Shown in pieces: positions 25,865-51,359 of a stretch of DNA of 51,359 nt (its first letter is position 1; every line of letters starts with the position of its first letter). Below the pieces are notes generated by a model, which worked only from the letters and a program-made list of their open reading frames with translations, ran no database searches and had not been told where the DNA came from. The position numbers and the translations under genes are program-made. Source of the DNA: Frankia sp. AgB32 (GTDB taxonomy: Bacteria > Actinomycetota > Actinomycetes > Frankiales > Frankiaceae); NCBI RefSeq assembly GCF_023243045.1, contig NZ_JALKFX010000008.1, forward strand, positions 1 through 51,359. The letters run 5' to 3'.

Positions 25865-28800
25865 GGCGTCCGTCCCGCCGACATCAGGGCCGGGTCCGCG
25901 GCGTCGGCGCGGCCGTCGGCCACGCCGACGGTGCCGGGGCTGTCGGCGTCGGGGCTGTCGGCGTCGGGGCTGTCGGTGCCGGGGCTGTCGGCGTCGGGGC
26001 TGTCGGCGTCGGGGCTGTCGGCGTCGGGGCTGTCGGCGTCCCGGCGAGACCGGCGCCACGACATCGCGACCGGCACCCCGGCCAGCAGCAGCAGGCCGAG
26101 CCCGCCGGCCTGCGCGAGCACCCGGTCGTGCGCCCGGCCGTCGGCCCTGGCCAACCGGATCGATCCGCCGCCGGGTGGCAGGTGGAAACCCGCGGCCCAG
26201 CCCCAGGCCCGGAAGGCGGGCAGCGGCCGGCCGTCGAGCCAGGCCTGCCAGCCGATTCCCGCCGGCACGGGGAGGACCAGGTCCCGCCCCCCGCGCGGCC
26301 CGGCCACGGAGACGTTCGCCAGCCGGCCGTCCGCGGGCAGCGCTCGCACCGAGGCAGGCGCGGCCGGCAGCCCGACGGCCCCCGGCGACTGCCCGGCCGC
26401 CGAGGGCGAGGATGCCCCGATCAGGAAGGCCGCGGGTCGGCCCGAGGCCGGCCCGGCCGCGGGTGCGGGCGGCGAGACCGTGGCGGGTGTCGGTCGACGG
26501 CCCGGCGAGGTCGACGGGTGCCAGAGCCACAGGCCCGCGCGGGTGTGCTCCTGGATCAGCGACGGACTGGCAGCCAACCGCTCGGCAAGATCGGCCGAGT
26601 CGCTCGTCGCCGGCACACCGACCGCGACGGCGCCGAGCAGTGGCAGCCAGCCGGCCGCCCGGTCCCCGCCGGCGGCGAGGTCGGTGGCGACGGCCGTCAG
26701 GAAGGACGCCGCCGGGCCGGGGGGTCGGAGCAGTCCGGCCGGGTAGCGGGCGCCGTCACCCGTCGCGAGGGTGTAGCGAACAGGCCCCGACCGCCCGGCG
26801 CGGTACAACACCAGCACGCTGGAGCCCGGCGGTTCGGTGCGCGTGCGGGCGAGCACCGCCCGCGCCACCGCCGACGAGCCGGTGGCGGACCAGGGCGCGA
26901 GGCTGGCCACCGGCGGGTCCGCGTCGGGATCGCCCGCACCGCCGGCCTCGGCCGACACTCCCCCGGCCGAACCGGCGTCGGCGGCGGCGACCACGGACGA
27001 TCGGCCCCAGGAGGTCGGGCTGCCCTGCCAGCTCGAGCCGGCCATGATCCGGTCGGCACCCAGGGCGGCCGGACCGACGACGACCAGCAGGGTCACCGGC
27101 AGGGCAGCGAACCGGCGGGAGCGTGACCGCGGGGCGACGGCTGCCGCGGCGAGCAGTGCACCGGCGATGACCAGGCCGTACTGCGGGCCGGCCCACCATG
27201 CCTCGGCGCCGGGGACGCGCTCGCCCGCATCGGCCGCCACCTGTGGCATGACCAGCACCGCGACCAGCCCCAGGAGCGCCAGCGACCAGCCGAGCCGAGC
27301 CGCCCGCCGCGCTGGCGCGGCCCCGCCGGCGCGGCCAGCCCGGCCGATCAGCCAACAGATCAGACAGCCGGCCAGCAGGCCGACGAGCGCGGCTTTCGGC
27401 CGCTGCCCGGCTCCCGCCAGCAACGGCAGGGACGCCTGCGGCAGGTGGGCCAGCGCGATGGCCGGCTCGGCTCGCATCCCCGCCGGCAGCACCAGGAGGA
27501 TCGGAAGCAGCGTCGCCGGCAGCACCGCGAGAACGTCCCACCACCGACGCCGGCCCACCAGCAGTGCGCCGGCGGCCAGCGCGCACCAGCTCAGCGGCGT
27601 CATCGACGGAGCGCAGGTGCCGAGCCCGACCAGACCGACGGCCAGCGCCCAGACGGCCCGCGCCCGGCTTGCGGGCCCGGCGGGGCTCCCGGCCAGGACC
27701 GTCCCGCCGGCGCGGAGCACCGCCGGCAGGATGATCAACGCGGCCACGGTGTCGGCCCGGCCGGCGACGACCGCGCCGCTCAGCGCCGGGCTGAGGCCGT
27801 AGGCCGCGGCCAGTCCGAACCGGACGACCGGGCGCGGGCGGAGCCGACCGAGCGTCCGGTACGCGCTCAGCCCGGCAAGCGCCGGGCCGAGCGCGAGCAG
27901 AAGCCAGACCGCGGCCGCCACCCGGCCGCCCAGCGCACTCGCAACGGCCGCGAGCAGCGCGGTCGCGGGCGGGACGGGCCCCGCGCCGGCCAGCGGGCCG
28001 GCCGGCTCGGCCACCCGGCCGGACCAGACCGCGACCCACAACTGGTGGACGTCCGCGGGCAGCGGCAGCCCGGCACCGAGCCCGTCCACCGGCATGCCGC
28101 GCATCGCGACGACACCGACGAGGGCGAGCAGGGCGGTGAGCGTCGCCGCGGCCCGCGCCGAACCCGGCCCGGGGGGAACGGCGGGCGCGGGGCGAGGCCG
28201 CCCACCGTTCACCACCGGCCGGGCGTCGTGGCCGTCGGCACCGCGTTCGGCGTCACCCTCACCATCGGCGGGGGTGCGGGGGGTGGGGATGACGGCGGGC
28301 GGCCGAGGCGCGGCTGGCCGGGCCGTGGCGGTTGCTGGCAGGTCGCCCCGGCGGGTACGCGACCGGCCGCGGGGAAACAGCCCCCGGACCACCCGGGCGG
28401 GCACCGCGCGGGTGGTCGCGGCCCGCCGGCGCAGGGCCACGAGCTGGCGTGGCCGGCTCAGCACGGCCCACGGCAGCGCGAGTTCGGACGCCGCCGCCCG
28501 CAGCCGCCCACGCAGCAGCAGGCCCAGCGCGCGCGGGCCGGACCCGAGCACGAGCGCGAGGACCGCGACGGGCAGCAGGGGCCAGGCCGGGTGCGCCAGC
28601 CGGATCCGCAGCGCCGCGACCCGCTGCGGCCACGCCGCGAGGTCGGCCGTCGCGCCGCCGCCGAAACAGGTCAACGAGGTCATGACGGCGGTGGGGACGA
28701 CCACGGTGCGCAACCCGGCCCGGGCGGCTCGCCAGCCGAGATCGATGTCGTGGCCGGCGTCGAGCTCGGGATCCAGGCCATCGAGTCGATGCCACGCCGC

Positions 28801-29433
28801 CGCGCGCACGAGCATGCCGGCACAGGCCACGGCGAGCACGTCCCGCGCGCCGTCATGCTGGCCGAGATCGACCTCTCCCGGCCGGATGCCGGTGCGGCGA
28901 CGGCCGGCACGGTCGACGCTGATCCCCGCCTCGAGCACGACGGGCGGCGCCGCCACGAGGGATCCGGCGCCACCGGACCGAGCGGGCGCGGACTGGCCGG
29001 CGCGCAGCTTGGGGCCGATGACGGCGGCGCCGGGATCGAGGCGGGCGTAGGCCAACAGGGTGCGCAGCGCGTCGGGCGCGGGCACGGCCGAGTCGTCGAG
29101 CAGCCAGAGGTAGCCCTCCGCCGGCGGCCCGCCGAGCCGGCCGAGACCGGCGGCGACCGCGACCGCCAGCCGGGTCCCGGCAGGCACCTCGACCTGTGCC
29201 GACGGACCGGCGGACCGGGGAGCACCCGGCCCGCCGCCGCCGATCCGGACATCGACGACCCTGAGGTCGACGGGTTGGTCAGGCGGCAGCTCCTGCGCCG
29301 CCAGGGCAGCGCGCAGGAGCGCGGCCGCGCCGGGAACACGGCCATGCACGCACACGACGGCCACCCAGGTGGTGGCTGCCTCGCCCCAGCCGGGCGGCGC
29401 CCCGGCGGGGCGCTGCGCGGCCTGGCCGCTCAT
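25861..29433 (-). CDS. Large glycosyltransferase: GT2 domain plus polytopic membrane region
   Basis: About 1190 residues. The N-terminal 250 residues resemble a GT-A family 2 transferase ('YLWLLDDSAVPAPDALRTLL', 'LGWRAARAGLRTVVVP'). The rest has roughly a dozen hydrophobic helices and a large extracytoplasmic domain, ending in one helix ('GGLGLLLLAGVPVAM') and a cytoplasmic tail of Asp-Ala-Asp-Ser-Pro repeats. The usual 'DxD' appears only as D-D-S, so catalysis is uncertain. I choose ATG 29433 (GGTGGGGG just upstream), but GTG 29454 is possible. It lies 9-30 bases after whiB and overlaps the DUF5719 gene, which suggests a whiB-led operon. Confidence 0.85.
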   Translation of the reverse strand: MSGQAAQRPAGAPPGWGEAATTWVAVVCVHGRVPGAAALLRAALAAQELPPDQPVDLRVVDVRIGGGGPGAPRSAGPSAQVEVPAGTRLAVAVAAGLGRLGGPPAEGYLWLLDDSAVPAPDALRTLLAYARLDPGAAVIGPKLRAGQSAPARSGGAGSLVAAPPVVLEAGISVDRAGRRRTGIRPGEVDLGQHDGARDVLAVACAGMLVRAAAWHRLDGLDPELDAGHDIDLGWRAARAGLRTVVVPTAVMTSLTCFGGGATADLAAWPQRVAALRIRLAHPAWPLLPVAVLALVLGSGPRALGLLLRGRLRAAASELALPWAVLSRPRQLVALRRRAATTRAVPARVVRGLFPRGRSRTRRGDLPATATARPAAPRPPAVIPTPRTPADGEGDAERGADGHDARPVVNGGRPRPAPAVPPGPGSARAAATLTALLALVGVVAMRGMPVDGLGAGLPLPADVHQLWVAVWSGRVAEPAGPLAGAGPVPPATALLAAVASALGGRVAAAVWLLLALGPALAGLSAYRTLGRLRPRPVVRFGLAAAYGLSPALSGAVVAGRADTVAALIILPAVLRAGGTVLAGSPAGPASRARAVWALAVGLVGLGTCAPSMTPLSWCALAAGALLVGRRRWWDVLAVLPATLLPILLVLPAGMRAEPAIALAHLPQASLPLLAGAGQRPKAALVGLLAGCLICWLIGRAGRAGGAAPARRAARLGWSLALLGLVAVLVMPQVAADAGERVPGAEAWWAGPQYGLVIAGALLAAAAVAPRSRSRRFAALPVTLLVVVGPAALGADRIMAGSSWQGSPTSWGRSSVVAAADAGSAGGVSAEAGGAGDPDADPPVASLAPWSATGSSAVARAVLARTRTEPPGSSVLVLYRAGRSGPVRYTLATGDGARYPAGLLRPPGPAASFLTAVATDLAAGGDRAAGWLPLLGAVAVGVPATSDSADLAERLAASPSLIQEHTRAGLWLWHPSTSPGRRPTPATVSPPAPAAGPASGRPAAFLIGASSPSAAGQSPGAVGLPAAPASVRALPADGRLANVSVAGPRGGRDLVLPVPAGIGWQAWLDGRPLPAFRAWGWAAGFHLPPGGGSIRLARADGRAHDRVLAQAGGLGLLLLAGVPVAMSWRRSRRDADSPDADSPDADSPDADSPGTDSPDADSPDADSPGTVGVADGRADAADPALMSAGRTP
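25931..26040 (-). repeat. 15-bp tandem array encoding Asp-Ala-Asp-Ser-Pro
   Basis: About seven units of a 15-bp sequence (plus strand GGGGCTGTCGGCGTC; one variant unit has GGTGCC) encode DADSP, with GTDSP variants, in the C-terminal tail of the large glycosyltransferase. The units are nearly identical, which implies recent expansion. Confidence 0.93.
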
Positions 29434-29463
29434 CCCCCACCGGACCCCGTCCACGGCCCCGGA

Positions 29464-30291
29464 TCAGACCGCTCGGCGGCGCTGTTTGCGTCGCTCCCGT
29501 TCGGACATGCCGCCCCAGATGCCGAACCGTTCGTCGTTCTCCAGCGCGTACTCCAGGCATTCGGGCCTGACCTCGCAGCCGGAGCAGATGCGCTTGGCCT
29601 CCCGGGTCGATCCGCCCTTCTCCGGGAAGAACGCCTCGGGGTCGGTCTGCGCGCACAGCGCGCGTTCCTGCCACTCCATCACCTCGCCGAACAGGTCGCC
29701 CAGCCCCAGATCAATCACTGAGGCGAGGGTGTCCCCCTCGACATCGGGATCAAGATCGCCCGCGAGGTCGTCGAGACCAGGATCGTCTCCGGCCAGCTCG
29801 GCGCCGGTGACGTCGTCGCGGACCACGTCGTCCCGGACCACGTCGTCCCGGACCACGTCGTCCCGGACCACGTCGTAGGCCCGGTCCTCATGGGTCGACT
29901 CGTGGACTGCCGGCTCGTCGTGGGCCAGACCGTCGTGGGCCAGACCGTGGCGGGTCGGATCCGCGGTGGCGGGCCCATCGCCGCGCTGGGCACCGATCAT
30001 CCGGTCGTCGACGCCGCCGAAGGTGTGGTCTTCGGCAGCCGGAACATCGGGACGGGCAAGCATGTCCACCCCCACCGGCCGCGGACGCACGGCAGGCGGG
30101 GCGACGGTGACCCGGTCCGGCGGTGCGGTCCGGGCTGATGGCACGGTGGTGGCGGACAGCGACGACTCCGGTGTGGCCTGTGTAGGCCGTTCAGTGAGCA
30201 CCCGCTCGGAGTGGTCACCGAACGGGTCATGCTCAGCGGGACGCTCGACGTCCGCGAGGACGGTGTGGACGCCCGCGTCGGTGTGCTCCAT
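29464..30291 (-). CDS. whiB: WhiB-family iron-sulfur regulator with a long acidic N-terminus
   Basis: WhiB (WhiB2/WhmD type) controls sporulation or division septation in actinobacteria. The C-terminal 80 residues have four cluster cysteines C213, C236, C239 and C245 (C-x22-C-x2-C-x5-C), 'GIWGGMSERERRKQRRRAV' and the basic tail. The usual protein is about 85-130 residues, but here about 200 residues precede the domain, acidic and partly repetitive (GLAHD twice, VVRDD four times). The start is well supported: GGAGGAG lies four bases before ATG. The same position next to the mannose genes holds whiB2 in mycobacteria (Rv3260c). A good promoter lies about 125 bases upstream. Confidence 0.93.
   Translation of the reverse strand: MEHTDAGVHTVLADVERPAEHDPFGDHSERVLTERPTQATPESSLSATTVPSARTAPPDRVTVAPPAVRPRPVGVDMLARPDVPAAEDHTFGGVDDRMIGAQRGDGPATADPTRHGLAHDGLAHDEPAVHESTHEDRAYDVVRDDVVRDDVVRDDVVRDDVTGAELAGDDPGLDDLAGDLDPDVEGDTLASVIDLGLGDLFGEVMEWQERALCAQTDPEAFFPEKGGSTREAKRICSGCEVRPECLEYALENDERFGIWGGMSERERRKQRRRAV
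29809..29880 (-). repeat. 15-bp tandem array encoding VVRDD in whiB
   Basis: Four units of GACCACGTCGTCCCG (plus strand, last one diverged) encode Val-Val-Arg-Asp-Asp at WhiB residues 141-160. The array is in frame. Confidence 0.93.
29917..29946 (-). repeat. 15-bp duplication encoding GLAHD in whiB
   Basis: GTCGTGGGCCAGACC occurs twice in direct succession and encodes Gly-Leu-Ala-His-Asp twice, about 20 residues before the VVRDD array in the same protein extension. Confidence 0.9.
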
Positions 30292-30422
30292 GGGACTCCT
30301 CCAGACCCGTCGCGGTGCGGTCGGCCACCCCCTGGGCGCCGGCGCACAGTGGCTGGTTCCACACCGGTCAGGCGTCGCACTACCGCACGAACCCCGCCAG
30401 CGAGGGGAATGACACGCCGGTA

Positions 30423-30451
30423 ATTACACGCTCCAGACTCGGCCGCGTCAA
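30423..30451 (-). promoter_or_regulatory. Candidate whiB promoter
   Basis: On the minus strand TTGACG, 17 bases and TGTAAT match the housekeeping-sigma consensus at five of six bases in each box. The leader to the whiB ATG would be about 125 bases. The rest of the 445-base whiB/fbiC gap is richer in A and T than its surroundings and contains a small inverted repeat (ACTAC/GTAGT) near 30700, but no gene that I can support. Confidence 0.6.
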
Positions 30452-30736
30452 CCCCACCAGCGCAACATCTTCTACAACCAGCGATCAGACCATAGCTCAC
30501 AGTCACTGCACACCATCGCCCAGGGTCCGGGCAACCACCCGATCGGTAACTGTGTGCAATCGCTACGGCGACGGTGTCCGCATTATGCCGCGCAACCAGA
30601 TCCGACATAAAGACCTAAACGGGCAACTTTGCGTCCGGTAAACGTGATGATCCCACCATTGCCGGACAACTCTTTTGGGCCCGCCGATCCGAACAACTAC
30701 TTACAGTAGTTTCGGGACTCGAAGACATGGCGGGTG

Positions 30737-33436
30737 TCAGGACACCACCGGCAGCACGGTCCGGACCGGTCCGCCTCGGGCAGCGTGAAAGCGCTCGTCC
30801 GGGACCCTCCCGTAGGTCGTGGTCCGTTGCCGAGCAGGGCGACCCGCTGCTGCGGCCACCTCCTCCAGCTCGGCCACGGACCGCCGCGAGCCGTGCTGCG
30901 AGCCGGCCATCCGGCTGATCGTCTCCTCCATCAGCGTCCCGCCGATGTCGTTCACCCCGCCGGCGAGCACCTGCCGGCAGCCGTCGGCGCCGAGCTTGAC
31001 CCACGAGCACTGGATGTTGTCGATGGACCGGTGCAGCAGGATGCGGGCCATCGCGTGCACCGCCCGGTTCTCCTGGACGGTGGGGCCGGGCCTCGCCACG
31101 CCGGCCAGGTAGATCGGCGAGCTGTGGTGGACGAACGGCAGCGCGACGAACTCCGTGAACCCGCCGGTGGTGTCCTGCAGGCGACGCAGCAGCCGCAGAT
31201 GCGCGACCCAGTGCGCCGGGGTGTCCACATGCCCGTACATCATCGTGGCGGTGGAGCGCAGGCCCACCCGGTGCGCCGCGGTGATCACCTCGACCCAGCT
31301 CGCCGTGGGCAGCTTGCCCTTGGTCAGCACCCACCGGACCTCGTCGTCGAGGATCTCCGCGGCGGTGCCGGGGACCGAGTCGACGCCGGCCTCGCGGGCC
31401 GCGGACAGCCAGTCCTCGATCGACATCCCCGTCCGGGTGACGCCGTTGAGGACCTCCATCGGCGAGTAGGCGTGCAGGTGCAGGCCGGGCGCGGCCCGCT
31501 TGATCTCGCGGGCGAGGTCGAAGTAGGCCGTGCCGGGCAGGTCCGGGTGGATGCCGCCCTGGACGCAGACCTCGGTCGCCCCGACCGACCAGGCCTCGGC
31601 GGCCCGGGTACCGACCTCCGCCAGGGACAGGGTGAACGCGTCGGCGTCGCCCCGCCGCTGCGCGAACGCGCAGAATCGGCAGCCGGTGTAGCAGACGTTG
31701 GTAAAGTTGATGTTGCGGTTGACGATGTAGGTGACGTCCTCGCCGACGACATCGCGGCGCAGCCCGTCGGCGAGCAGGCAGAGCTCCTCCAACGCCGTAT
31801 CCCGCGCCCCGAACAGGGTGAGCGCCTCGGCGTCGCTGATCCCGGCCGGGTCGACGCCGGCGTGACTCAGCGCGGACCGCAGGTCGGAGTCCAGCCGCGG
31901 CGGTGCGCCCGCGGCGCGCCGGCCGGTGCCCACCACTCCGTCGGCACCGGTGCCGGCCGCGCTGACCTCGGCGCGCAGTGCCGCCCAGTCGCCGTACACG
32001 GTGTCGAAGTCGGCCCGGGTCTCGCTGTGCCGGCCGACGGTGTCGACCGCGGTGTTCAGATCGGTCCGGCCGCTGTCGCCGAGACCGCCGTCGGGCTCCT
32101 GCCAGGGACGGCCGACCGGGCGGGCGCCCTCGGCGAGCAGCCCGTCAGGCCCGGCGAGGGCACGCACATGCCTCGCGACCCGCGGATCGAGCCACGGCTC
32201 CTCCTGGTACGGGGGGTAGACCGTGAGCCGCGGCCGCAGGGTGAAGCCGGCGTCGGCGGTCACCGCGCGCAGAACGTCCAGGTCGGGCCAGGGCCGCTCG
32301 GGATTGACGTGGTCCGGGGTGACCGGGGAGACGCCACCCCAGTCGTCGATGCCCGCCGCCAGCAGCAGGTCGCACTCGGCGGCGTCGATAAGGTTCGGCG
32401 GCGCCTGCACCCGCGCCGTCGGACCCAGCACGAGCCGGGTGACGGCGACGGCGGCGGCGAGCTCCTCGGCGCCGACGTCGGGCTCCGCGCGCATGGCGGT
32501 GTCGTCCTTCGCCCGGAAGTTCTGGACGATCACTTCCTGGATGGACCCGTAGCGCCGCGACAGCCCACGCAGCTCGAAGATCGTCTCTGCCCGCTCCGCC
32601 CGGGTCTCGCCGATACCCAGCAGCAGACCCGTCGTGAAGGGGACGGAGAGCCGGCCGGCGTCGGTCAGTACCCGCAGCCGGACCGCGGGCTCCTTGTCGG
32701 GCGAGCCGAAGTGCGGGCCGCCCGGCTCCGACCACAGCCGGGTCGCGGTCGTCTCCAGCATCATGCCCATCGACGGGGCGACCGGCTTGAGCCGGGCGAG
32801 CTCGGTCCAGCTCAGCACACCGGGGTTGAGATGCGGCAGCAGGCCGGTCTCCTCCAGCACGGCGATCGCGGCGGCGCGCAGGTAGCCCAGCGTCGAGTCG
32901 TAGCCGTGGGCGTCGAGCCACTCCCGGGCCGCGGGCCAGCGCTCCTCCGGACGGTCACCCAGGGTGAACAACGCCTCGGCGCAGCCGGCGGCGGCCCCCG
33001 CCCGCGCGATGTCCAGCACCTCGTCCAGGGACAGGAACGGCGCGGCCAGGCGGTGCGGCACGGTGGCGAACGTGCAGTAGTGGCAGCGGTCGCGGCACAG
33101 CCGGGTCAGCGGGATGAAGACCTTGGGCGAGTAGGTGACGACGCCCGGCCGGCCGAGCGAGGCCAGGCCCGCGTCACGCACCCGGCCCGCCGAGGCGCAC
33201 AGGTCGGCGAGGTCGTCGCCGCGGGCGGCCAGCAGCACCGCCGCCTCGACGGCATCGAGGGTGGCGCCGTCCCTGGCCCGGCGCAGCGCCCGACGCATGG
33301 CCGACGCGGTCGGCGCGGCATCGACCCGCGGTGACGGCGCACCGGCCGGCCCGGACGTCTCCGCCCGGCCCGGGGCATGGCCCGGGCCGGGCCTCGGGCC
33401 GTCCGCTCCGTCGGATGTCGCCACCGTAGTTGTCAT
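30737..33436 (-). CDS. fbiC: FO synthase, bifunctional CofG/CofH (F420 biosynthesis)
   Basis: This radical SAM enzyme makes the deazaflavin FO from tyrosine and the flavin-pathway diaminouracil. The 899-residue protein has two radical SAM halves: CofG-like with C114-x3-C118-x2-C121 ('[10 protein letters not shown]') and CofH-like with '[10 protein letters not shown]' near residue 583. Each binds a 4Fe-4S cluster. Both modules are of normal length, joined by a linker around residues 440-490 that is Gly/Ala-rich. The ATG at 33436 is chosen for the GAGGAAG upstream. It lies close to fbiA and fbiB, whereas in M. tuberculosis fbiC is located elsewhere. Confidence 0.96.
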
Positions 33437-33555
33437 GTCTTCCTCTGTTCCCGAACGGCGGGACAGGACGCCGCCGCGCACGCCGGCGGGACCTGCCCGC
33501 CGTCATCGATGTCGAAGGGAGAGCGTCGAAGGGATAAGTGCACGGGGCGTCGAAA

Positions 33556-49250: not shown

Positions 49251-51359
49251 GTGGAATCGACCGAGGCGGCCCCCGTCGCCGCCAGGCCCGGTCAGGCCGC
49301 GCCCGCACGCGCGGCCGGGCTCCGGCGGCCCGCGCGCAGCGGGCCACCCGCGCGCAGCGGGCCACCCGCGCACACCCGACCGCCGAGGGCGGCCCGACCG
49401 CCGGTGGAGACCCAGGCGCCGGGTGTGACCCTGTTCCGGCCGTGGCGCATCCTGCGCTCCGCGCCGCCGGCTGTCTGGGTGATCACGCTGCTGTTCGCCG
49501 CGATGCTCGCCGGCTGGTCGGTGATGGTGCCGCAGTACCACGCGCCGGACGAGCCCAACCACGTCGACGCGGTCATGCGGCTGGTCGAGGGCCGAGGCTG
49601 GCCGCATCCCGGGCACGCGATCGTGACCCAGGGTGGCGTCGGCGCGATCATGCAGGCGCCGTACGGATCCTGGCAGTCCATTCGGGACCTCTCCGCCGGG
49701 CCGTTCATCGCGGCGGAGTCGACCCCCCGGGACCAGCGGCCGACCTGGCGGACGCTGGAGCGCACGCCCGCGCCGCGGGGCGGCATCCAACAACTCGTGC
49801 AACATCCACCGCTGTACTACTGGGTGGACGCGGAAGCCCTCAAGGCGCTCCCCGGTGACGCCGTCGACCTGCGCTGGGACGAGATCATCGGCATCCTGCG
49901 GCTGCTCAGCGTCCTGATGGTCGCCCCGCTGCCGCTGCTGGCCTGGGCCGGTGCCAATCGGCTGTCCGACGGCAGTCGGGTCGCGGGGATCTGCGCCGCC
50001 CTCGTCCCCCTCGCCGTCCCCGAGCTGGCGCATATCGGCTCCAGCGTCAACAACGACAACCTGCTCGTCCTGACCGGCGGACTGACCACGATCGCGGTGG
50101 TACACGTGCTGCGCGGCGACACCACGCTGCGTACGTCGTTCTACACCGGCGCCTTCCTCGGCCTCGCGCTGATGACCAAGTCCCTGGCGATCGTGCTGGT
50201 CCCGATGGCCGTGCTCGCCTATGTGGTGGCCTGGTCCAGGGCCCGCCGCGACGCCCGCGCGCTACGGGCGGACCGGCCGGCGGAGCAGGCGACGGACACC
50301 GCGCCGTTCCGACTCGCCGAGGTCGGTCCGATGGGGCCGTCCGCCGCGGCGCTGCGGGTGCCGTGGCGGCAGATCGCGCTCGGCGGAGCGGTGATGATCG
50401 CCCTGGGTGGCTGGTGGTGGATCGTCAACGTCGTGCGCTGGGGCGCCTTCCAGCCGCAGACGCCCGGCTTCCCACTCGGCCAGTACCTGGGTGACGACTG
50501 GGGCGCCTACACCGAGGTCCTGGTGAACGGGACGTTCCTGCGCTGGTGGGGATCGTTCGGCTGGTTCGAGGTGAACCTCACGACCACCCCGATCCGCACC
50601 GCCTCGGGACTGATCATCTTCTTCTTCGCGCTGGCGCTGATCCGCGGCCGCGGCTGGCGACGGCGGGTCGACCTGCTGTTCCTGCTCTGGGTCACCTGGG
50701 CTCTGTTCGGCCTGATGACGCTCCAGTCCGCCCAGAACTTCGACAAGTACTTCCACGTCAGCGGCATTTCCGGCCGCTACCTGTACGCCGGGATCGCCTC
50801 GGTGGCGATCGGGGTGGGGATGGGCGCCGCGGCCACCGGCCGCTGTCTGTCGCGGATCATGCCGCTGTTGTTCCTCGCGGGCGCCGCCACCCTGCAGACC
50901 TGGTCGATCAGCATGGTGTTCCCACACTTCTGGCGGCCGGCCGACGGCGATCTCCACGACGCGTGGACGAACATGACCGCCTGGTCGCCCTGGCCGCCGG
51001 CCGTCGCGGCGATCATCGCCGTGGCGGTGTGCGTGCTGGCGGTGCTCACGCTGGTCGCCTGCCTGTGGACCCTCGTCGTCGGTGACACCGCCGCTCCCCG
51101 GCGCCGGGCCGGGAGGGCCGCCCCGGTTGCTGCCAGGACGGCAACGGCGGTCCGCCCGGACGCGAACGCGCCCACGTCGGCGAACCGCAGCGAAACGTCC
51201 GCCGCCGTCACCGCGGCGCGGGCAGAGGCGCCGGCCACGAACGACCATCCAGTGACGGCGGGCTCGGTCACGGCGGGCCCGGTCACGGCGGGCCCGGTCA
51301 CGGCGGGCCCGGTCACGGCGGGCCCGGTCACGGCGGGCCCGGTCACGGCGGGCCCGTCA
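49251..51359 (+). CDS. Polytopic membrane glycosyltransferase-like protein (partial, runs off window)
   Basis: An open frame of about 700 codons with no stop before the window edge. After an Ala/Pro/Arg-rich start (first 58 residues, with RSGPPA twice) come about ten hydrophobic helices, an N-terminal 'YHAPDEPNHVDAVMRLVEG' with the Asp-Glu motif typical of DUF2142/GT39-like transferases, and a large loop. The C-terminus becomes hydrophilic and ends in Val-Thr-Ala-Gly-Pro repeats. The start is uncertain: GTG 49251 (chosen for codon bias), TTG 49239 or GTG 49425. It likely transfers a sugar from a lipid carrier outside the membrane, by analogy with its family. Confidence 0.85.
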   Translation, partial: MESTEAAPVAARPGQAAPARAAGLRRPARSGPPARSGPPAHTRPPRAARPPVETQAPGVTLFRPWRILRSAPPAVWVITLLFAAMLAGWSVMVPQYHAPDEPNHVDAVMRLVEGRGWPHPGHAIVTQGGVGAIMQAPYGSWQSIRDLSAGPFIAAESTPRDQRPTWRTLERTPAPRGGIQQLVQHPPLYYWVDAEALKALPGDAVDLRWDEIIGILRLLSVLMVAPLPLLAWAGANRLSDGSRVAGICAALVPLAVPELAHIGSSVNNDNLLVLTGGLTTIAVVHVLRGDTTLRTSFYTGAFLGLALMTKSLAIVLVPMAVLAYVVAWSRARRDARALRADRPAEQATDTAPFRLAEVGPMGPSAAALRVPWRQIALGGAVMIALGGWWWIVNVVRWGAFQPQTPGFPLGQYLGDDWGAYTEVLVNGTFLRWWGSFGWFEVNLTTTPIRTASGLIIFFFALALIRGRGWRRRVDLLFLLWVTWALFGLMTLQSAQNFDKYFHVSGISGRYLYAGIASVAIGVGMGAAATGRCLSRIMPLLFLAGAATLQTWSISMVFPHFWRPADGDLHDAWTNMTAWSPWPPAVAAIIAVAVCVLAVLTLVACLWTLVVGDTAAPRRRAGRAAPVAARTATAVRPDANAPTSANRSETSAAVTAARAEAPATNDHPVTAGSVTAGPVTAGPVTAGPVTAGPVTAGPVTAGPS
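51252..51359 (+). repeat. 15-bp tandem array at the window end
   Basis: About seven units of GTCACGGCGGGCCCG, in frame, encode Val-Thr-Ala-Gly-Pro (the first has a C-to-T change). The last unit lacks one G before the final TCA, which would shift the frame. This may be a sequence error at a contig end. Confidence 0.9.

Follow-up and report, generated by a model that had tools for sequence, protein, structure and literature searches.

We analysed a window of DNA (the whole stretch of 51,359 nucleotides) from Frankia sp. AgB32, in which a whiB gene on the minus strand is flanked downstream by a large glycosyltransferase gene and upstream by a bifunctional cofGH gene. The whiB frame starts at an ATG at 30291, which is preceded by CTGGAGGAGTCCC, and ends at a stop at 29464. 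The features of this locus are:

29464 to 30291, minus strand: whiB (class II Wbl) ORF, long form of 275 aa; the long start is present in 31 of 33 family orthologues.
29467 to 29673, minus strand: predicted Fe-S domain and basic tail of WhiB, residues 207–275 (PF02467; invariant columns in 26 sequences).
29674 to 29727, minus strand: pre-domain segment LASVIDLGLGDLFGEVME, residues 189–206, modelled as a helix and low in pN/pS.
29728 to 29916, minus strand: acidic part of the extension, residues 126–188, of which the most acidic 40 residues are 149–188 (net charge −14).
29812 to 29871, minus strand: VVRDD four times in tandem, residues 141–160; lineage-specific, absent from the nearest relative (G006).
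29917 to 29946, minus strand: GLAHD twice, residues 116–125 (array 29916–29948); G006 has three in tandem.
29917 to 30216, minus strand: remaining variable part of the extension, prone to disorder, residues 26–125, as judged by pN/pS and a model without secondary structure.
30217 to 30291, minus strand: first 25 codons (MEHTDAGVHTVLADVERPAEHDPFG), conserved at the nucleotide level.
30270 to 30319, minus strand: candidate stem round the ribosome site and ATG, pairing CGCACCGCGACGG in the leader with CCGACGCGGGCG in codons 4–8 (RNAalifold and pair counts).
30404 to 30451, minus strand: probable whiB promoter, TTGACG (30451–30446), 17 nt, TGTAAT (30428–30423), conserved in 31 family genomes.

The glycosyltransferase of the window was matched at 48 of 80 fetched whiB loci, a count in which misses may be cut off, since the flanks did not exceed about 2 kb. 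The C-terminus of its ORF consists of acidic, repeat-built DADSP/GTDSP units encoded by a 15-bp array of 7.1 copies (25935–26040, minus strand), and another 15-bp tandem array (6.8 copies, 98% match) was detected at the window end (51255–51356). The upstream neighbour, a bifunctional FO synthase CofGH of the F420 pathway (30740–33481, minus strand), lay within the fetched flanks at 8 of the 80 loci.

A first-pass annotation of this DNA had described the reading frame, a strong ribosome site, the repeats and an acidic N-terminus, all of which were confirmed by ORF reading and Pfam analysis; the Whib profile (PF02467) matched residues 207–269 with 92.1 bits (cut-off 23.6). Cys213, Cys236, Cys239 and Cys245 were invariant in an alignment of 26 sequences and, by this comparison, correspond to the four invariant cysteines for the predicted [4Fe-4S] cluster of Wbl proteins. 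Among solved Wbl structures, the best match was 8dy7_H, in which positions 14–87 aligned with Frankia residues 202–275 (E 2.6e-36), whereas the best WhiB1 structure reached only 1.3e-15. We take 8dy7 and 8dy9 to be Streptomyces WhiB, and likewise assume the SCO3034 orthology (compare PMC4255298). This protein has the same class II domain in a structure of 87 residues, with 13 residues before the matched part compared with 201 in Frankia. The Wbl domain was also matched in solved structures of WhiB3 (WhiD), WhiB1, WhiB4 and WhiB7, which belong to other Wbl classes. The sequence GIWGG at 257–261 represents the Wbl G[V/I]WGG motif, and beside it is the triplet ERF (254–256), a class II mark that is given for WhiB2 of M. 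tuberculosis (PMC6282962). Because the four cysteines, GIWGG and ERF match the class described in that review, the Frankia protein is assigned by sequence as an orthologue of WhiB/WhmD in class II (WhiB/WhiB2/WhmD/WhcD). With 275 residues it is outside the typical Wbl size of 81–139 residues; however, size does not define the family, as the same review says "typical" and itself lists larger members (PMC6282962). The genome also had one match above the cut-off to the HTH_WhiA profile, representing a WhiA-type gene.

Orthologues of whiB (E <= 1e-30) were found in 33 of 35 Frankiaceae genomes, the collections containing one genome per species; the two genomes without an orthologue were assemblies of 1200 contigs and of 63% completeness. 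The distal ATG was kept in all 31 genomes whose locus holds the start, and each of these had a GGAGG site upstream, in the form (C/T)TGGAGG(A/G)G a few bases 5' of the ATG, with ME(H/R/N)(T/A)DA following. The remaining two orthologues were G034, in which the gene is split by contig ends so that the start region and the domain are on separate contigs, and G013, a 3-Mb genome with a short WhiB of 89 aa that has its own ribosome site and about 18 residues before the domain. In the 31 genomes, the number of residues before the domain varied from 66 (G014) to 217 (G029), and none of them had a stop in the WhiB frame from codon 26 up to the domain, whereas each of the other two sense frames was open in 3 of 31. 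The antisense frames were open in 25, 11 and 3 genomes over the same stretch, which means little in GC-rich DNA. Since the ATG and its GGAGG site are kept and the frame is held open in 31 genomes, the long form appears to be the rule in the family, and we infer that it is the general product in Frankiaceae. This supports the earlier placement of the start approximately 200 residues before the Fe-S domain, and a short form conserved in all relatives was not found (31 of 33 long, one cut by a contig end and one short). On the other side, G014 with its 66 residues and G013 with its protein of 89 aa show that some members of the family do without a long tail.

The 204 residues before the domain carry a net charge of −31 and contain 23% Asp+Glu. 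The VVRDD array has a 15-bp unit (29810–29876, 4.5 copies, 98% match), and different repeats are found in other lineages, for example DEA in G003, VEDTR in G033 and TGD in G023. Thus, the GLAHD and VVRDD repeats pointed out in the first-pass annotation are real but lineage-specific, VVRDD being missing even from the nearest relative, and it is not the repeats that are conserved but the start, the acidic character and the domain-adjacent segment. Substitution patterns followed the same division. In the own genus, pN/pS was 0.53 in codons 26–45, 0.80 in codons 46–188 and ~0.00 in the domain; within each of four genera (g1, g5, g6 and g7), codons 46–188 gave 0.66–0.85 and the domain 0.00–0.05. 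The pre-domain segment (~189–206) had pN/pS values of 0.20 (g1), 0.18 (g5) and 0.05 (g7), with weaker constraint in g6 (0.47). One segment of the extension reached 0.94 within a genus, and a value of 1.01 was obtained over the whole family, a figure affected by saturated pairs and by an unreliable alignment of the middle region; the within-genus values are preferred. Net charge of the extension was negative in 31 of 31 family genomes (−11 to −35), so that the variable-length acidic extension proposed earlier proved real. The mean charge was −0.152 per residue, whereas a null model based on codon-position composition predicts about −0.09; 27 of the 31 genomes were below this null at p<=0.05, and four did not beat it. 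The variable part contained 78% disorder-promoting residues, and AlphaFold modelled residues 1–196 without secondary structure (block-mean pLDDT 43–58), followed by a helix at 197–214, in a model of low overall confidence (mean pLDDT 53.4). These properties characterize the extension as a predicted intrinsically disordered acidic tail, in which disorder and negative charge seem to persist as the sequence drifts and whose length, judged from the family comparison, changes fast, driven by repeats.

Seven places with a Whib domain were found in the genome. Probable WhiB1-, WhiB4- and WhiB7-like paralogues (class names assigned by eye) had starts giving 82, 118 and 95 aa, respectively, and a fourth (C24) had a start giving 110 aa; another (C12) was a 402-codon open frame without a clear start, and one (C155) gave no row in the start comparison. 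In 42 loci (41 from non-family genomes of the class, plus G013), which were read by eye with at most six candidate starts each, a start with a ribosome site gave 82–98 residues in 23 and 102–182 residues in 11, and 8 were ambiguous. Among 80 named loci, 25 Mycobacteriales had a start with a strong ribosome site giving 109–210 residues, and 16 such starts outside Mycobacteriales and Frankiaceae gave 85–112 residues. The tails of 16 of the 25 Mycobacteriales proteins were read out; they comprised 46–141 residues before the domain and were net negative in all 16 (−5 to −30), the value of −30 belonging to Rhodococcoides fascians. Four Rhodococcus/Rhodococcoides orthologues (L149, L164, L171 and L177) had their own acidic tails with net charges of −17 to −30, some with repeats, and these apparently represent a separate lengthening. 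More generally, WhmD/WhiB2 of Mycobacterium and the orthologues of Rhodococcus, Nocardia and Gordonia are of the same class and also have acidic tails, some with repeats, but are shorter than the Frankia protein (up to 210 aa in total); their tails showed no similarity to the Frankia tail by eye, and we take the lengthening to be separate. As all 16 Mycobacteriales tails that were read out are acidic, a variable acidic N-terminus appears to recur in class II Wbl proteins, with Frankiaceae having the longest among those examined. The length that the first-pass annotation considered notable does exceed the typical 81–139 residues given in PMC6282962, but acidic extensions also occur in Mycobacteriales, and 15-bp in-frame tandem arrays are also present elsewhere in the window, including the adjacent glycosyltransferase gene. 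A literature search covering titles and abstract openings of open-licence papers returned no paper on an extended Frankia WhiB, and nothing on the WhiB N-terminus was present in the available portions of two Frankia expression papers (PMC3188489, PMC5563000).

The reading we prefer, with a probability of roughly 45%, is that the acidic tail modulates, by electrostatic means, the encounters of WhiB with WhiA, sigma/RNA polymerase and DNA. WhiB acts together with WhiA (PMC6282962, PMC4850268), and Wbl proteins other than WhiB bind region 4 of sigma-A; in WhiB3, residues just before the first Cys contact both this region and the beta tip (PMC10245118). Since the constrained pre-domain segment of Frankia WhiB is located where WhiB3 makes these contacts, by analogy it probably keeps a polymerase contact. 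The tail would hang from this conserved segment just before the Trp-Gln motif, near promoter DNA, and would act via its charge, not its sequence. It could rival DNA as a partner of the protein's basic C-terminus (RERRKQRRRAV) and of basic surfaces on sigma and WhiA, and may thereby damp non-specific DNA binding, with productive binding depending on WhiA plus RNA polymerase; gain and loss of repeats would set tail length and charge. A precedent by analogy for a functional tail is the N-terminus of actinobacterial sigma-A, which belongs to a different protein family but is likewise a long, variable, disordered and partly acidic extension on a transcription initiation factor, and truncations there revealed function (PMC10011835).

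A serious rival, which we consider somewhat unlikely, is that the extension, although translated, evolves almost neutrally, as a GC-rich insertion prone to slippage and tolerated since the N-terminus is free, with acidity mostly a by-product of codon make-up in GAC/GAG-rich repeats. The weak constraint described above (0.66–0.85 in the middle region within genera, and the values of up to 0.94 and 1.01) would also fit such a linker, as would the 15-bp arrays elsewhere in the window, including the acidic DADSP array of the adjacent glycosyltransferase, and the portion of the negative charge that codon-position composition alone predicts. In addition, S. venezuelae WhiB with an N-terminal 3xFLAG-linker tag was fully functional (PMC4850268), indicating that an N-terminal appendage is tolerated, which fits the tuning and the neutral role alike. 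However, a neutral linker would not readily account for a charge below the composition null in 27 of 31 genomes, nor for negative tails in 16 of 16 Mycobacteriales orthologues, nor for the retention of at least 66 residues in 31 of 33 orthologues, though repeats come and go.

Sequence ahead of the ATG is conserved too. The promoter region contains a conserved block, GTGTAATTACCGGCGTGTCATTCCCC, at 30429–30404, with near-perfect identity and approximately 138 nt 5' of the ATG, within which GTGTAATT-N6-GTGTCATTC is nearly invariant in the family; the short-form genome G013 kept the block with two mismatches. In other families, a degenerate form of this block was present upstream of whiB, and TGTAAT occurred in the best-matching stretch near whiB at 34 of 42 loci (a raw count read by eye in 41 non-family genomes and G013). 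A stretch of ~40 bases 5' of the −35 box (30461–30501, minus strand; TGTGAGCTATGGTCTGATCGCTGGTTGTAGAAGATGTTGCG) was also strongly conserved in the family and resembles an activator site. Outside the family, leader DNA gave short and weak matches (best E 1.7e-5 among the matches listed), those in G095 and G109 being located upstream of whiB. A leader ORF starting GTGGCCGACCGC was rejected because the GTG-to-ATG spacing differs between genomes and thus no frame is kept. The N-terminal peptide was a weak candidate for a binding motif: past MEHTDAGV, what g1 and g5 share is conserved at the nucleotide level no less than at the residue level, and elsewhere in the class outside the family the peptide gave chance-level matches only (best E 0.005).

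In 12 genomes of the own genus, synonymous sites in codons 1–25 were almost frozen (pS 0.019, compared with 0.358 in the domain), and synonymous variation was seen in 2 of 24 degenerate codons (2–25) against 49 of 67 domain codons. One explanation, which we regard as improbable, is that the start region is a regulatory RNA, in which the leader pairs with codons 4–8, hides the ribosome site and ATG and sets WhiB output at translation. The stem found by RNAalifold kept 329 of 330 pair cells in 30 genomes, and its sole synonymous change (G-C to G-U, 4 genomes) keeps pairing; however, no pair was altered on both sides, i.e., no compensatory change was seen, one pair is lost in G029, and in G007, which is not among the 30 genomes, the leader arm carries a substitution. 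The single-sequence folding energy was not better than that of dinucleotide shuffles (z +0.67, with 141 of 200 as good; z +0.66 for a longer leader), and the RNAalifold column-shuffle z-scores were inflated, with one of five stretches (−60 to +30) giving z −0.09. An Rfam search of 29400–31000 yielded one match only, below the cut-off and on the other strand, at chance level (E 0.21). Furthermore, a similar dip was observed in the WhiB1-like paralogue (L030 and five orthologues; pS 0.037 in the first codons and 0.278 at the end, compared with 0.046 and 0.327 for whiB in 5 of those 6 genomes) and in the WhiB4-like gene (0.000 in codons 2–8 and 0.200, 3 genomes), a comparison that involved three control genes or fewer. 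As the dinucleotide shuffles and the paralogue control went against it, the start-codon hairpin was downgraded from a main finding and is retained as a candidate.

Similarly improbable is a main product of the classical short kind, with 84 or 71 residues, translated from an internal GTG located 13 codons ahead of the domain or from a domain-adjacent ATG/GTG, the upstream ORF being little used or only regulatory: this GTG is present in 21 of 31 genomes, would yield the classical length and has GAGGGGGA 13 nt upstream in Frankia sp. AgB32, but no internal start is common to all genomes, G024 is devoid of any start codon within 60 codons, five genomes of g6 lack both internal positions, and no GGAGG-type site was present at the GTG in the aligned rows showing it, whereas in all 31 genomes a GGAGG precedes the distal ATG, and the upstream frame is held open. 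A short isoform may be made in addition in many members of the family, although not in all.

Streptomyces WhiB is a short protein that governs the switch to cell division and sporulation (PMC6282962, PMC4850268). In its broadest form, the tuning model would state that class II WhiB across actinomycetes has a charge-conserved, sequence-free acidic tail of repeat-set length, a built-in DNA mimic that sets the WhiA/RNA polymerase threshold for activation of cell division, with Frankiaceae having the longest tails and a start under nucleotide-level control; we consider this generalization unlikely. On the practical side, cloning Frankia WhiB at Streptomyces length would miss the N-terminus, and the effects of tail length and charge could be tested directly with the range of lengths in this one family. 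If lineages do tune WhiB by a disordered acidic tail, the naturally occurring lengths, with about 18 to 217 residues ahead of the domain, would serve to examine how the activity of a sigma-linked co-activator depends on tail charge and length.
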